Shown in pieces: positions 1,189 through 14,184 of a stretch of DNA of 15,296 nucleotides. The stretch's first letter is position 1, and each line of letters starts with the position of its first letter. A program made the position numbers and the translations under genes. The stretch is taken from the NCBI GenBank assembly GCA_947629065.1, contig CANRCH010000028.1:1-15296 (forward strand), in the 5' to 3' direction. The notes under the pieces are model-generated. The model saw only the letters and a program-made list of their open reading frames with translations. It made no database searches and was not told where the DNA came from. Source of the DNA: an uncultured Aliarcobacter sp. Its GTDB lineage: Bacteria; Campylobacterota; Campylobacteria; Campylobacterales; Arcobacteraceae.

Positions 1189-2418
1189 TTATTTGTATAT
1201 ATTATTTAAACTTCCATTTACTGTATGAAAAATCATTACACTATATTTTTTTGAGTAGTATTTTAAAAGAAGATGTTGCAAAGTTGGTTCAATTGATGGA
1301 GTAAACCAAGCATTATTTGAAGTCATAATAATATATTTAACATCATCTAAATTTTCATAAATTTTATCAGTTGTACCTTCATAACAAATTGCATTTCTAA
1401 ATTTTGTATCATTTATTATAAAATCTGTTGGTTTTTGTGCTTTACTATAATCAACGGCACCATCATAGAAAATATTATTAATTAAATCTACAAAAAACTT
1501 TGGAAGAGGTATCTCTTCACCAAAAGGAACTAAAACTACTTTTTTTGCAACTTCAAAACTTCCCTGTTTAAACAAATATGTAGCATTAAATATCTCTTTA
1601 TTTTCATAATATAGTGACCCTAAAACAATATTTATCTCATTTGATAGTTCTATTAATCTATGCATTAAATCTTTTTTTGTATTTAAAACAAGTGCAAAAC
1701 TAGTTTCTGGAAGTATTATTAAATCTTTTTTTTCATTTATTGCTGTTTGTATTAAAGAAAAATTATCTTCAATTAAAACATGTAAGTTCTCTTTTTGCCA
1801 TTTTAAATCTTGAGAAACATAAGTTTGAGGCATAAAAATATCTAATTTTGGAGCAGGAATGTCCTCTTTTTTTGAGAAATCAAGTGCAAAAATTAGTAAA
1901 AATAGGGCTAAAAAATTGTATTTTTTTAGCACTTCAAAAATTACAAAAGAGATTAATATTACAATAAATGCTATTTTTGAAGTACTAAAATATGAATCAA
2001 CAAAAATTAACTCCAACTTCATCCAGTTGAAGCCAAATGGAGCTATAAAAGTAAAAATAAATATTGCAATGGCTTTAAAATATATACTATTTTTTATTGC
2101 AAGTATATAGAAAATTAGTGCATAAACTAATGATATTCCAATTAAAACTAGTGGAAAAATATAGATTAAATCATAATATTGAAGGCTAACAGCCATCCAA
2201 TTACACCAAAACAGTCCCATAAAAAAACCGCTACTTGCCATTTGATATTTATTATTTGACAATAAAAGATATATTCCAATAATTCCTAAAATAGAGTTAA
2301 TAATTTTTATTTCAATATTAAAATATGCTAAATATATGAAGCAAGATAATAAAAATGCTGTAGTGAAGCCTTTTATTATATTATTTTTGTTAAAATATTT
2401 AGTTTTTAAAAGAAACAT
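1189..2418 (-). CDS. lnt: Apolipoprotein N-acyltransferase
   Basis: Lnt transfers an acyl chain from phospholipid to the N-terminal cysteine of lipoproteins at the outer face of the inner membrane. This 409-residue protein has several hydrophobic spans in residues 15-180, followed by a nitrilase-type domain. The catalytic triad can be placed: Glu238 in ILPETS, Lys293 in KKVVLVPFGE and Cys345 in AICYEG. The signature SNNAWFTPS (367-375) also fits. It is shorter than the 512 residues of E. coli because it lacks the C-terminal membrane span, as in other campylobacterotal Lnt proteins. The ATG at 2416-2418 is 28 bases from the divergent yajC start and has only a weak ribosome site. The last residues after the VNGS motif (LNNIYK) adjoin the truncated dctA, so the extreme C-terminus may not be the ancestral one. 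LptE, encoded further along, is a likely substrate. Confidence 0.9.
   Translation of the reverse strand: MFLLKTKYFNKNNIIKGFTTAFLLSCFIYLAYFNIEIKIINSILGIIGIYLLLSNNKYQMASSGFFMGLFWCNWMAVSLQYYDLIYIFPLVLIGISLVYALIFYILAIKNSIYFKAIAIFIFTFIAPFGFNWMKLELIFVDSYFSTSKIAFIVILISFVIFEVLKKYNFLALFLLIFALDFSKKEDIPAPKLDIFMPQTYVSQDLKWQKENLHVLIEDNFSLIQTAINEKKDLIILPETSFALVLNTKKDLMHRLIELSNEINIVLGSLYYENKEIFNATYLFKQGSFEVAKKVVLVPFGEEIPLPKFFVDLINNIFYDGAVDYSKAQKPTDFIINDTKFRNAICYEGTTDKIYENLDDVKYIIMTSNNAWFTPSIEPTLQHLLLKYYSKKYSVMIFHTVNGSLNNIYK
2388..2396 (+). promoter_or_regulatory. Candidate extended -10 promoter for yajC-secD-secF
   Basis: TGTTAAAAT matches an extended -10 element (TG-n-TAtAAT) and lies within the 5' coding part of lnt. 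Transcription would start near 2403, giving a leader of about 44 bases with an AAGGA ribosome site at 2436-2440. No -35 is evident, as is usual in this phylum. Inferred from sequence only. Confidence 0.4.
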
Positions 2419-10383: not shown

Positions 10384-10908
10384 ATGAGAGCTTCAAAAAA
10401 CCATATAATAGGCAGTTTTTTACTTATATTTGCACTTTTTTTTACAGCTTGTGGATATAAGCCAACAGCTTTTTATGCAAAACAAGAGTTAAAAAAAGAT
10501 GTTTTTGTGGATTTAAAAGTAAGAGTTGAAGATCCACAAAACTCAGTGTTAGTAAAAGACTCAGTTACAAAGATTTTAATGCAAAAAATTGGAAGTAATA
10601 TGGTTGATAAAAAGGAGCTAGCAGTTGTTTTAATGGATTTAACAATAAGTAGTGTTAGTTTTTCAACTCTTAGTTATGATAAAGATGGTTATAACAAACT
10701 ATATAAAGCAAATGTTGTTATAGGTGTAAAATATTTTGATAAAGAGAGTAAAAAAACGAAGAACTTCACAGTTGATGGAGAGCATGATTTTGTTGTTGAT
10801 ATTGGTGGAACGATAAATGATTCACATAGATTTGAAGCTATTTCAAAAGCAAGTGATATGGCTGTAACTGAAATACTTTCTAAAATAGCAGTTGCTTCAT
10901 TTAAATAA
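10384..10908 (+). CDS. lptE: LPS assembly lipoprotein LptE
   Basis: LptE is the outer-membrane lipoprotein that plugs the LptD barrel and helps insert LPS or LOS. The 174-residue product has a lipoprotein signal peptide: basic start (MRASKNH), hydrophobic core, and a lipobox FFTAC with Cys23 as the lipidated residue. The first mature residues CGYKPT match the CGY(K/H) start usual in LptE. The body is an alternating alpha/beta type with the segment VFVDLKVRVEDPQNS. Position between leuS and folC matches the order known in Campylobacter and supports the call, which would be weaker on sequence alone. AAAGG lies 6 bases before the ATG. Its N-acylation would depend on the Lnt encoded nearby. Confidence 0.82.
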   Translation: MRASKNHIIGSFLLIFALFFTACGYKPTAFYAKQELKKDVFVDLKVRVEDPQNSVLVKDSVTKILMQKIGSNMVDKKELAVVLMDLTISSVSFSTLSYDKDGYNKLYKANVVIGVKYFDKESKKTKNFTVDGEHDFVVDIGGTINDSHRFEAISKASDMAVTEILSKIAVASFK

Positions 10909-10913
10909 ATAAG

Positions 10914-12083
10914 ATGGAAAATTTAAAAACTTATTCTTTAAAAGAGTTTTTAGAGTACAAAACAATGTACTACGATAAAATAGATTTTAGCTTTGTAAAA
11001 AAAGCTTTTTCTATTTTAAATGATAAAATAGAAATCCCTTTTGTGATTCATATTGTAGGAACAAATGGAAAAGGAAGCACAGGAAGGTTTCTTTCTCACT
11101 ATTTGTTTCAAAAAAACTACAAAACGCTACACTATAGTTCACCACATATTTTAAAATTTAATGAAAGAGTTTGGCTAAATGGAGCTGATATTGATGATAA
11201 ATCTTTAGAAGATGCACATAAGTTTTTACAAACTATTTATGATGTTGAACTTTTAAAAATTCTTACATATTTTGAATATACAACACTTCTAGCTATATAT
11301 TTAAGCAAAAATTGTGACTATTTAGTACTAGAAGCTGGGCTTGGAGGAGAGTTTGACGCTACAAATGTAGTAAAAAACAATCTTTCTTTAATTACAACAA
11401 TAGATATTGACCACACAGATTTTCTAGGAAATAGTGTGGAAGAGATAGCAAGAACAAAGATGCGTTCTGTTGATACAAAGATGATTTTAGGTTATCAACT
11501 TTATGATGAGGTTTATAAAACAGCATTTAGTGTAAAAGATGAAGTTAAAAAAGAGTTTAATAAAGATATAGAGATTTTAAGGCTTCAAGATTTTAATAAA
11601 TATGAACTAGATAGTAGTTTTGCAAGTTATTTAAAAAGAAATTTACACCTAGTAATTGCTTGTTTGGAAGAGTTAAAAATTCCACTAGATTTAAATTTGT
11701 TTAAAAATACACCACTATTTGGAAGATGTCAAAAAATCAAAGAAAATATAACTATTGATGTAGGACACAATCCTTTAGCTGCAAAAGTTTTGTATGAAGA
11801 GTTTAAAGATAGAAAAATAAACTTAATTTACAACTCATATAAAGATAAGGATTTTAAAGAGGTTTTAACTATTTTAAAACCTTGTATAAAATCTCTTTAT
11901 ATTATGAATTTAGATGATAAAAGAGTTGTGCAAAAAGAGCTTTTAGAAGAAATTATAAAAGGTTTAAATATAGAGATAGTTCCTAAACTAGATATAAAAG
12001 ATGAGGAAGAGTATTTGGTTTTTGGTTCGTTTTTGGTAGTTGAGAAATTTTTAAGGCTATTTAAATATGAGTTTAGAGCTTGA
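10914..12083 (+). CDS. folC: Bifunctional dihydrofolate / folylpolyglutamate synthase
   Basis: FolC adds glutamate to dihydropteroate and to folates using ATP, in the cytosol. The 389-residue protein belongs to the Mur ligase superfamily. It has the ATP loop GTNGKGST (49-56), the FolC signature HYSSPHILKFNERVWLNG, the motif EAGLGGEFDATNVV and the central block ITTIDIDHTDFLGNSVEEIARTK with the conserved Lys of the ligase active site. The C-terminal domain starts near ITIDVGHNPLAAKVL, typical of the family. It follows lptE by 5 bases with only a poor ribosome site, which suggests coupling. Its last 17 bases are shared in another frame with the next gene. Confidence 0.93.
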   Translation: MENLKTYSLKEFLEYKTMYYDKIDFSFVKKAFSILNDKIEIPFVIHIVGTNGKGSTGRFLSHYLFQKNYKTLHYSSPHILKFNERVWLNGADIDDKSLEDAHKFLQTIYDVELLKILTYFEYTTLLAIYLSKNCDYLVLEAGLGGEFDATNVVKNNLSLITTIDIDHTDFLGNSVEEIARTKMRSVDTKMILGYQLYDEVYKTAFSVKDEVKKEFNKDIEILRLQDFNKYELDSSFASYLKRNLHLVIACLEELKIPLDLNLFKNTPLFGRCQKIKENITIDVGHNPLAAKVLYEEFKDRKINLIYNSYKDKDFKEVLTILKPCIKSLYIMNLDDKRVVQKELLEEIIKGLNIEIVPKLDIKDEEEYLVFGSFLVVEKFLRLFKYEFRA

Positions 12084-14184
12084 AAAAGTTTTAGAGGATC
12101 TATATTTTCAAAAACAGAAGATTGAAGCAGAAATTGCAAGAGTTCAAACTTTAATAAAAGATGAAAAACCTATAAAAAAAGATTTAAATAAAGATGAAAA
12201 AATTGAACTTTTTAAATCTTTATTTGTAGCAAGAAGTGATATTTATGCTAAAAAATGGAAAAGTAAAGATGGATTAAAAGAGGGATTTTTTCCTGTTACT
12301 GCTACATTTAAAGGTGAAGATTATCTACCAATAACTAATTATGAAATAGAGCAACACTTAAGAGGAAATATCTTTTTAGCAACATATTTAATTGATAGTA
12401 AAAACAGTTCTAAATATGTTGTGTTTGAGTTAAATAGTGAAGATGTTTTTATGTTTTTAAGAGTTTTAAATGATTTAAATTTAAAAGCATATTTTTCTTT
12501 TTCTTCATACTCTTCAATTTTTGCTTGGATATTTTTTGAAGAAGAAGTAGCTTCAAAAGTTGCATATAACTTTGCACTATTTATTCAGCAAAAAGCAAGA
12601 ATTTCTGCAAAACTATATCCAAATAAAGAGTTTGCAACAAAAGAGAGTTTGGGCTTTCCTTTAGAACTACCTTTACAACTTTTTTATAGAAATAGAAACA
12701 AAACACTATTTTTTGATATTAATACAAACAAAGTTTTTGCTGATCAGTGGGAAGTTTTACAAAATATTAAGCCCATTTCAAAAGAGATTATTTTTAGATA
12801 TTCACAAACTCCTAGCAGTAAAAATGTAGAAAAAGATTTGAAAAATATTGAGTTCCCAAAATTCAAACTAAAAATTATTTTAGATAGTAGTCTAAAAATA
12901 GCTACAAAAGATTTATCAAAATCACTTTTAAGTCGTCTTAAATCATTTGCTAGTTTTGAAAATCCACAAATAAAACTTCTTATGTCACTTAGAAAACCAC
13001 TTTACAACACTCCAAAATATATAAGAGGTTTTGATGAAGATGAGAATTTTTTATATCTTCCAAGAGGTTTAAAAGATAAAGTTTTAGAGTTTTTTTCAAA
13101 CTATGGAGCTAATTTTGAGCTTATTGACAGTAGAGTTTGTGAAAAAATAGAGACAAAAAAAGTAAAGTTTACATTAAGACCTGAACAAGATGAGGCAATA
13201 AATGAGATTAAAAAAAGAGATTTTTCTATTTGTGTAGCGCCACCAGGATTTGGAAAAACATTAATTGGAGCAAAAGCTTTTGAAACTAGAGCTGTTAAAA
13301 CTTTGATAATTGTAAATAAAAATATGCTTTTAGATCAGTGGATAAGTAGATTTGTTGATTATTTTTCATATACAAAAAAAGATATAGGAATACTTGGAAA
13401 AGGTAAAAATACTTTAAATGGAAGCTTAGATATTGCAACAATGCAGAGTTTAAACAACAATCCTGAGTTTATAAAAAACTACTCATTTGTAATTGTTGAT
13501 GAGTGCCATCATATTCCAGCACTAACTTTTGAACAAGTTATAAAACATTTTAGTGGAAAATATATTTTAGGTCTTAGTGCTACTCCAAATAGAAAAGATG
13601 AACTTGAACCCATACTTTTTCAGCAGTTAGGTGAAATTTCATACTCATACAAAAAGAAAAAAACTCATACAAATAAGCTTCAAATAGTAAGAACAGAGTT
13701 TACAAGTAGCGTGGATAATTATGCAAATTTAATAAATGAGCTTTGCTTAGATGAAAATAGAAACAAATTAATCGTTGAAACAATCAAAAAAAATCTAAAT
13801 AGAAAAATACTTCTTCTAACAGATAGAATTGAGCATATTAATATTTTGGAAAATCTGCTTGAACTTGAAAAGATTCCTTTTGTTGCAATTCATGGAAGTC
13901 AAAATAAAAAAGAGCAAGTAGAGAATATGGAAAAGATAAGAAATAGTTCTTTGATTTTAGCAACAAGTTCATTTTTTGGAGAGGGAATAGATTTCCCACA
14001 CTTAAATACAATTCTTTTTGCAACACCTATTTCATACTATGGAAGATTGATTCAATATCTTGGACGAATAGGAAGAGGAAGTCAAGAGTGTTTAGCAATA
14101 GATTTTCTTGATTATAAAAATGCAATGCTAAATTCAAGCTATAAAAAAAGGCTTGAAGGTTATAAGCAGATGCACTATAAATAA
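12067..14184 (+). CDS. TOTE-type primase-like domain fused to an SF2 helicase
   Basis: This 705-residue protein has two recognisable parts. Residues about 45-235 resemble the archaeo-eukaryotic primase (AEP) domain of TOTE conflict systems: FKSLFVARSDIYAKKW, HLRG (97-100), the WIFFEE strand (154-159), ELPLQ (200-204) and LFFD…ADQWEVL. Residues about 265-370 (ending LPRGLKDKVLEFFSNYGANFELID) resemble the segment before UvsW/XPB-like helicases. The SF2 helicase follows: Walker A APPGFGKT (391-398), DECHH (478-482), SAT (504-506), the GEGIDFP motif V and QYLGRIGRG (663-671), so ATPase function looks intact. In the AEP part the DxD metal motif aligns with Glu121-Leu-Asn123, and the SGxGxH motif with Tyr148-Ser-Ser-Ile-Phe152, so polymerase activity is doubtful. 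It overlaps folC by 17 bases and ends a housekeeping unit; no transposon genes are beside it. Role unknown; DNA repair or replication restart is an inference. Confidence 0.85.
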   Translation: MSLELEKVLEDLYFQKQKIEAEIARVQTLIKDEKPIKKDLNKDEKIELFKSLFVARSDIYAKKWKSKDGLKEGFFPVTATFKGEDYLPITNYEIEQHLRGNIFLATYLIDSKNSSKYVVFELNSEDVFMFLRVLNDLNLKAYFSFSSYSSIFAWIFFEEEVASKVAYNFALFIQQKARISAKLYPNKEFATKESLGFPLELPLQLFYRNRNKTLFFDINTNKVFADQWEVLQNIKPISKEIIFRYSQTPSSKNVEKDLKNIEFPKFKLKIILDSSLKIATKDLSKSLLSRLKSFASFENPQIKLLMSLRKPLYNTPKYIRGFDEDENFLYLPRGLKDKVLEFFSNYGANFELIDSRVCEKIETKKVKFTLRPEQDEAINEIKKRDFSICVAPPGFGKTLIGAKAFETRAVKTLIIVNKNMLLDQWISRFVDYFSYTKKDIGILGKGKNTLNGSLDIATMQSLNNNPEFIKNYSFVIVDECHHIPALTFEQVIKHFSGKYILGLSATPNRKDELEPILFQQLGEISYSYKKKKTHTNKLQIVRTEFTSSVDNYANLINELCLDENRNKLIVETIKKNLNRKILLLTDRIEHINILENLLELEKIPFVAIHGSQNKKEQVENMEKIRNSSLILATSSFFGEGIDFPHLNTILFATPISYYGRLIQYLGRIGRGSQECLAIDFLDYKNAMLNSSYKKRLEGYKQMHYK

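Follow-up and report, generated by a model that had tools for sequence, protein, structure and literature searches.

A folC-linked primase-helicase gene of the Arcobacteraceae with a degenerate Prim-Pol active site

The window analyzed here is the whole stretch of 15,296 nucleotides from contig CANRCH010000028.1 (assembly GCA_947629065.1) of an uncultured Aliarcobacter sp., a member of the family Arcobacteraceae (Campylobacterota). It contains a gene coding for a protein with a long N-terminal helix, an archaeo-eukaryotic primase (AEP, or Prim-Pol) domain and a superfamily 2 (SF2) helicase motor (Table 1). Proteins of this type are currently annotated as "TOTE conflict system archaeo-eukaryotic primase domain-containing protein" or as "DEAD/DEAH box helicase", and the first of these names suggests an active conflict primase. 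An earlier note on this DNA had described the gene as a domesticated fusion of an intact motor with an apparently dead primase, lying in a housekeeping unit. The coordinates of the open reading frames (ORFs) agreed with the frame proposed there and with its overlap of 17 bases with a folC-like ORF, and a folC-like gene was also found upstream in the folC-linked orthologues.

Table 1. Positions in the window of the gene under study, its domains and motifs, and the gene preceding it.
Feature	Position	Strand	Remarks
Whole gene: N-terminal helix, degenerate AEP domain and XPB/UvsW-like SF2 helicase	12067..14184	+	705 aa, ATG start
folC-like Mur-ligase gene, upstream	10914..12083	+	Pfam Mur_ligase_M; name folC from reading
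Long N-terminal helix, residues 2-32, retained in AEP-less orthologues	12070..12162	+	Structure model
AEP (Prim-Pol) domain, residues 44-242	12196..12792	+	
E95-x-H-L-R99 segment	12349..12363	+	Residue counts, dead versus intact rows
AEP motif I site, E121-L-N123 in place of DxD	12427..12435	+	
AEP motif II site, residues 146-154, SSYSSIFAW in place of SxSGNGxHxW	12502..12528	+	
Likely AEP motif III, LFFDI with D217 retained	12706..12720	+	D or N in intact relatives too
Domain between AEP and motor, about residues 263-362; XPB/UvsW fold match starts here	12853..13152	+	Model (start at 263-267)
SF2 helicase motor, residues 365-705	13159..14181	+	
Walker A, APPGFGKT, residues 391-398	13237..13260	+	
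Helicase motif II, DECHH, residues 478-482	13498..13512	+	
Helicase motif III, SAT, residues 504-506	13576..13584	+	
Helicase motif VI, QYLGRIGRG, residues 663-671	14053..14079	+	

The AEP domain was recognized by the Pfam family AEP-TOTE (PF22548; E=1.2e-42, 146.5 bits versus a gathering cut-off of 27). Two studies give the metal motifs of AEPs as hhhDhD/E (motif I) and hD/E (motif III), and assign motif II, sxH, to the nucleotide (PMC5862659, PMC10778844). In the window protein motif I reads FELN, and motif II contains S146/S147 and F152, both of its glycines being lost; alignments of relatives placed all these substitutions at the positions where the earlier note had put them. Structure modeling showed the AEP fold intact and the same as that of the Prim-Pol 7nqd (known structures were compared by VIA alignment), and the domain measured 196–198 aa between the same landmarks that are at least 212 aa apart in complete domains.

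Since the loss of motif I depends on correct alignment, a shift in register was considered as an explanation, with the catalytic residues lying elsewhere. Pairwise alignment by phmmer with the solved CRISPR-associated Prim-Pol (CAPP) did set the CAPP DID opposite window residues 108–110. Against this, an hhalign profile of intact relatives put their DLD opposite E121-L-N123 (100%, E 2e-54), profile alignment put the CAPP DID opposite that same DLD, and residue 121 closes a predicted strand (114–122) in the model. The metal site was judged by profiles and strand positions, without residue-level superposition, and on this evidence a shifted alignment was rejected as extremely improbable.

Some rows were dropped before the counts. 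Duplicate genomes were removed before alignment; broken copies (L005, L038) were left out of the alignments and their trees, partial ones (L089, L098, L099, L100) were left out before the 51-row motif counts, the quick tree and the careful tree, L101 was excluded from trees only, and two long branches (L010, L044) were left out of the careful tree. None of the 51 aligned Arcobacteraceae rows had acids at both 121 and 123, which bears out the claim of a degenerate site. Position 121 was E in 38 rows, K in five, Q in four, C in two and S in two, and never Asp; position 123 was occupied by ten different residues. A lone E-I-D was found among the 120 close homologues listed (pattern readable in 105). 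Because the substitutions are held across the family, they are not due to chance. His152 was still present in three rows (L026, L031, L044), and this suggests, from the residues, that motif I was lost before motif II. Loss of the motif II His was set aside as proof of a dead enzyme because this residue is replaced by Gln, Tyr, Arg or Lys in several AEP families (PMC5862659); the argument for inactivity is therefore carried by motif I. On that motif, published work reports that DxD double mutants of two CAPPs (D177A/D179A and D86A/D88A) were inactive (PMC8211822) and that PolpTN2 was inactivated by a change of DID to LIL (PMC5862659).

These mutants also bear on the idea that the domain is still a catalyst, in which Glu121, Asp217 and nearby acids would bind metal and support an altered polymerizing or cleaving mechanism. 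Of the 51 rows, 35 had an acid at each of positions 121 and 217, so that some metal binding is possible; D217 was retained in 45 of 51, and D126 was kept by 43 of the 51 dead rows and by all 8 intact rows of the same alignment, within a fold that is intact. Column 217 was D in 35 and N in six of 41 intact rows, so that it can be assigned to motif III only tentatively. However, the freedom at position 123, the K, Q, C or S found at 121 in 13/51 rows, and the loss in most rows of the motif II His and of R167 argue against this idea, as do the inactive mutants of related enzymes, and we consider it very unlikely. In a comparison of 41 intact with 47 dead rows, D121, D123, S146, H152, R167 and Q187 showed little or no variation among the intact rows but varied among the dead ones, whereas H97, W154, P185, P202 and W228 were invariant in both. 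Conversely, E95 (47/47) and R99 (45/47) were fixed among the dead rows, and both positions varied among the intact ones. The net charge of the domain (mean +4.6 in 51 dead and +1.9 in 41 intact rows, window +2) was not used as evidence of DNA binding because the rows are related and the value of the window protein is ordinary.

The motor, in turn, has the sequence features of an SF2 helicase. Pfam matched ResIII (368–509) and Helicase_C (567–670), motifs I, II, III, V and VI were all found, and the four motor motifs named in the earlier note (Table 1) were conserved in relatives; dead, shrunken and AEP-less forms differed in their motor motifs only by conservative changes. In the structure model the motor and the domain preceding it have a fold of the XPB/UvsW type, a match that supports the proposed likeness to these translocases.

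Distribution was examined by several surveys. When named genomes were scanned, 158 relatives were detected, of which 80 loci were kept; these overlap with the genomes of the Campylobacterota surveys, so the surveys are not independent. Among the 80 loci, 28 had folC, and DxD or SGxGxH was found in none of the 26 with a readable motif I (one was cut off, and one had no AEP). The other 52 loci had no folC in the DNA examined, and both DxD and SGxGxH were present in all 41 that were readable (four were cut off, seven lacked AEP residues). Overall, motif I was cut off at five loci and AEP residues were absent from eight, one of these being L160, a fragment from an intact-type copy. Hosts of the intact loci belong to Campylobacterota, Nitrospirota, Pseudomonadota, Bdellovibrionota, Elusimicrobiota, Spirochaetota, Actinomycetota and others, and among 120 intact-form homologues listed, DLD was found in 118 and the SGxGxH pattern in 117.

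Within the phylum, PF22548 matched 79 of 397 Campylobacterota genomes, including 36 of 43 from the Arcobacteraceae. Outside the family, strong full-length copies occurred in 7/354 genomes, all with DxD; the remaining matches were weak, and the six that were read are DUF1882-type proteins. An orthologue of the whole protein was present in 51 of 61 Arcobacteraceae genomes, four of the ten without the gene coming from one genus. The AEP domain was full or truncated in 36 of these carriers, shrunken in four and absent from 11, and motif I could be assessed in 35 of the 36 (the broken G292 copy not being included): none had DxD. A whole-protein search at E <= 1e-40 matched 25 of 298 phylum genomes, and the five outside the Arcobacteraceae were all intact types. 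G318 and G334, two genomes from the same genus as the window, each contained both an intact-type and a dead copy, the intact-type copy of G318 being split over two frames. The order leuS, lptE, folC, helicase was shared by 23 loci. These results indicated a chromosomal, folC-linked and family-wide gene whose intact kin are patchy and often plasmid-borne. The survey of orthologues behind folC that the earlier note had proposed gave a divided answer: the substitutions are kept across the Arcobacteraceae, but in other Campylobacterota no folC-linked orthologue was found, the five loci outside the family lacking folC in the DNA examined.

The neighborhood was also as the earlier note had described it, a Pfam scan of 10 window proteins showing housekeeping genes. 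An Lnt-like gene (1189–2418, minus strand) and an LptE-like gene (10384–10908, plus strand) had no Pfam match at 1e-5 and are named from reading and context. In other genera, but not in the window, folC and the helicase gene are separated by genes for an M23 peptidase and a bactofilin (by Pfam in L041 and L015, with similar ORFs in L023, L045 and L098). Several copies are damaged: L005, L121, L129 and L190 are intact-type copies that are split or shortened, and L089/L160 is a fragment. The broken copies, among which are also L038/L072 and L100, include a dead-type copy with an internal TAG (G292) and the AEP-less copy of G405, which is interrupted by several stops. Locus L184 comes from a record titled "MAG: Helicobacter pylori PMSS1 isolate MiH-14oct19-106" but contains an AEP-less helicase of the Arcobacteraceae type; probably the title is wrong or the bin contaminated.

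Searches of plasmids placed the intact relatives in a different setting. An intact protein matched 100 plasmid records at E <= 1e-30; 88 covered at least 80% of its length and 43 are predicted to be conjugative. The best six matches were Arcobacter and Aliarcobacter plasmids, with 84–88% identity. D[LF]D was present at motif I in all 11 plasmid copies read and SxSGxGxHxW at motif II in nine; the two that miss the strict motif II pattern (L187 and L193) keep DxD, and the six Arcobacter and Aliarcobacter copies all fit it, one being split in two frames. Using the window protein as query, 13 plasmid records were found at E <= 1e-60 (30–53% identity), namely those six and others from Escherichia or Pantoea; all were matched by the intact query as well, and none of the 13 carried the dead kind. 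A phage origin of the intact form was rejected after a search of 50,697 phage records yielded no match at E <= 1e-20.

The plasmid copies raise the question of whether the window gene is a chromosomal defence gene, that is, a helicase-based conflict protein still acting on phages or plasmids. An AbiEii-type gene lies beside the intact copy on all six Arcobacter and Aliarcobacter plasmids, lying directly upstream and a few bases off in five (L188–L192) and as the second gene downstream in the sixth (L186, pACLO), where a HipA gene is also near; the pair looks like a small conflict cassette. In addition, the window protein is matched by PADLOC models for PrimPols and helicases associated with defence. 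However, genes of the window's kind occur throughout the family and in conserved order behind leuS-lptE-folC, unlike patchy defence genes, and Pfam revealed no defence family among the 10 window neighbors, which were not scanned with PADLOC. We regard a present role in defence as quite unlikely.

To follow the history of the gene, an unrooted tree of the motor region was built. The 37 Arcobacteraceae rows were split from 12 intact rows with support of 100/100, and a quick tree of 91 rows gave the same groups. Since intact forms occur in many phyla and the dead form in a single family, the dead state is taken as the derived one. Four shrunken and nine AEP-less rows formed one clade (95/98), within which the AEP-less rows grouped at 86/75 and the shrunken ones at 100/100. 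Eight complete AEP-less proteins of 474–477 aa still have the helix at the N terminus and resume at about residue 262, so that the AEP domain is missing between intact flanks. Four of the eight belong to genus g2 (L083, L084, L086, L088), where the gene immediately preceding the helicase codes for a der-like GTPase and no folC was seen; AEP loss in this genus goes with a different gene location.

The ratio of nonsynonymous to synonymous substitution rates (dN/dS) was then compared between domains. In 18 pairs from the dead clade it ranged from 0.019 to 0.165 for the AEP domain (median about 0.10) and from 0.012 to 0.129 for the motor (median 0.07); in seven intact pairs the AEP values were 0.064–0.091 (median 0.07). 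By this measure the dead AEP domain is under constraint, although a little weaker than in the intact form. This purifying selection and the newly fixed residues indicated that the domain does something where it is kept, possibly as the nucleic-acid sensor or clamp proposed in the earlier note, and its being shrunken or gone in 15 of the 51 carrier genomes that it is not indispensable.

Selection also bears on the possibility that the domain is a passive relic, its function lost in the ancestor and its fold kept as a spacer by folding need while decaying towards loss. The four shrunken and 11 missing domains speak for such decay, as does the proportion of nonsynonymous differences (pN), which was higher in the AEP domain than in the motor in 15/18 dead versus 5/7 intact pairs, with a median ratio of 1.7 versus 1.0. 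On the other hand, dN/dS was well under 1 in 18/18 pairs, E95 and R99 became fixed in the dead clade, and the domain persists in 36 of 51 genomes, so that we find a relic rather unlikely.

Taken together, these results are probably best explained by a domesticated primase-helicase, in which a dead AEP domain remains under selection and is likely auxiliary to the motor. In the Arcobacteraceae ancestor, an AEP-helicase of the AEP-TOTE/CAPP-helicase kind, plasmid-borne elsewhere, would have been fixed in the chromosome behind folC. With motif I lost, the Prim-Pol domain would be unable to perform two-metal nucleotidyl transfer, and the remainder would act as an ATP-driven, XPB/UvsW-like translocase on duplex DNA. 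The AEP fold most likely binds DNA (a single-strand/double-strand junction or a primer terminus) or a partner, and may help in loading the motor, or in placing it, at forks that are stalled or damaged. One sublineage has a shrunken domain, or none, between the intact helix and motor, and the contribution of the domain is therefore considered auxiliary. Several observations weigh against this explanation, in addition to the acids at 121 and 217 and the pN values: AEP dN/dS exceeded that of the motor in 13/18 dead pairs versus 6/7 intact pairs, absence of the domain from 11 of 51 genomes is compatible with slow decay, the motor tree leaves the deepest Arcobacteraceae branching without resolution, and the model (full-length predicted template modeling score, pTM, 0.49) does not fix the arrangement of AEP and motor. 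Sequence evidence alone does not separate an accessory domain from a relic, E95 and R99 favoring the former and reduction in the sublineage the latter. A more specific proposal, which we advance tentatively, is that of a pseudo-primase: the polymerase-dead fold may have been remade, with its fixed E-x-H-L-R patch, into a domain that reads DNA ends or junctions, or gates the motor, in a chromosomal XPB-like translocase, the stages being plasmid enzyme, dead accessory, shrunken remnant and deletion between intact flanks.

AEP-helicase fusions are known, but the literature searched gave no account of one that is inactivated or of the series of losses. Prim-Pol enzymes are usually read as polymerases, and here a whole bacterial family would retain the fold without the chemistry. 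The presence of intact, dead, shrunken and deleted forms in one gene family makes non-polymerase roles of AEPs directly testable, and offers a clear example in which a gene of plasmid type has turned into a core gene of repair type.

Among known systems, the closest are the AEP-TOTE and CAPP-helicase fusions. Published work records CAPP-helicase as the third type of CAPP_A (PMC8211822) and SF2-like AEP fusions (PMC5862659). The window protein shares with them the order helix, AEP, helicase and the AEP fold, and aligned with intact homologues over its full length at 40–46% identity, but it lacks DxD and SGxGxH, its AEP domain is shorter, and its kind is chromosomal and family-wide where theirs is patchy and often plasmid-borne. 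Unlike AEP-TOTE, it showed no linkage to mobile elements or conflict partners among the 10 window proteins and the 13 plasmid records; a printed definition of the TOTE-system partner genes was not found in the literature searched. It also differs from CAPP, whose 7nqd fold it shares, in having no CRISPR-Cas linkage in the window, where no cas-like family was found among the 10 proteins scanned, the search being confined to the window.

The nearest fold to the AEP model after CAPP was 2atz, the structure of HP0184/DUF1882, a stand-alone protein of 180 aa that, unlike the window protein, keeps the motif II His and has no helicase; in the six loci read, its gene lies beside one resembling glyA. 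An earlier publication has described HP0184 as an AEP subfamily of Campylobacterales (PMC8065100). Six aligned DUF1882 proteins (L046–L051) matched the intact AEP profile (hhalign 93.5%), with D-x-N as motif I, and the two that were scanned (L046:5656-6198 and L050:4769-5314) passed the AEP-TOTE cut-off of 27 bits, with 29.6 and 27.7. DUF1882 was present in 119/150 phylum genomes and 0/61 Arcobacteraceae, an unexplained complement to the dead AEP-helicase that may reflect a single lineage event and was not used as functional evidence.

Among repair helicases, the window protein scored under the RadD/YejH cut-off of 720 bits, and to our knowledge RadD has no AEP domain. It obtained 63.4 bits against the NCBIfam XPB equivalog NF045503, far below the cut-off of 610. 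Compared with Sulfurisphaera XPBII and T4 UvsW, it shows about 20% identity, and adds to them an N-terminal AEP domain.

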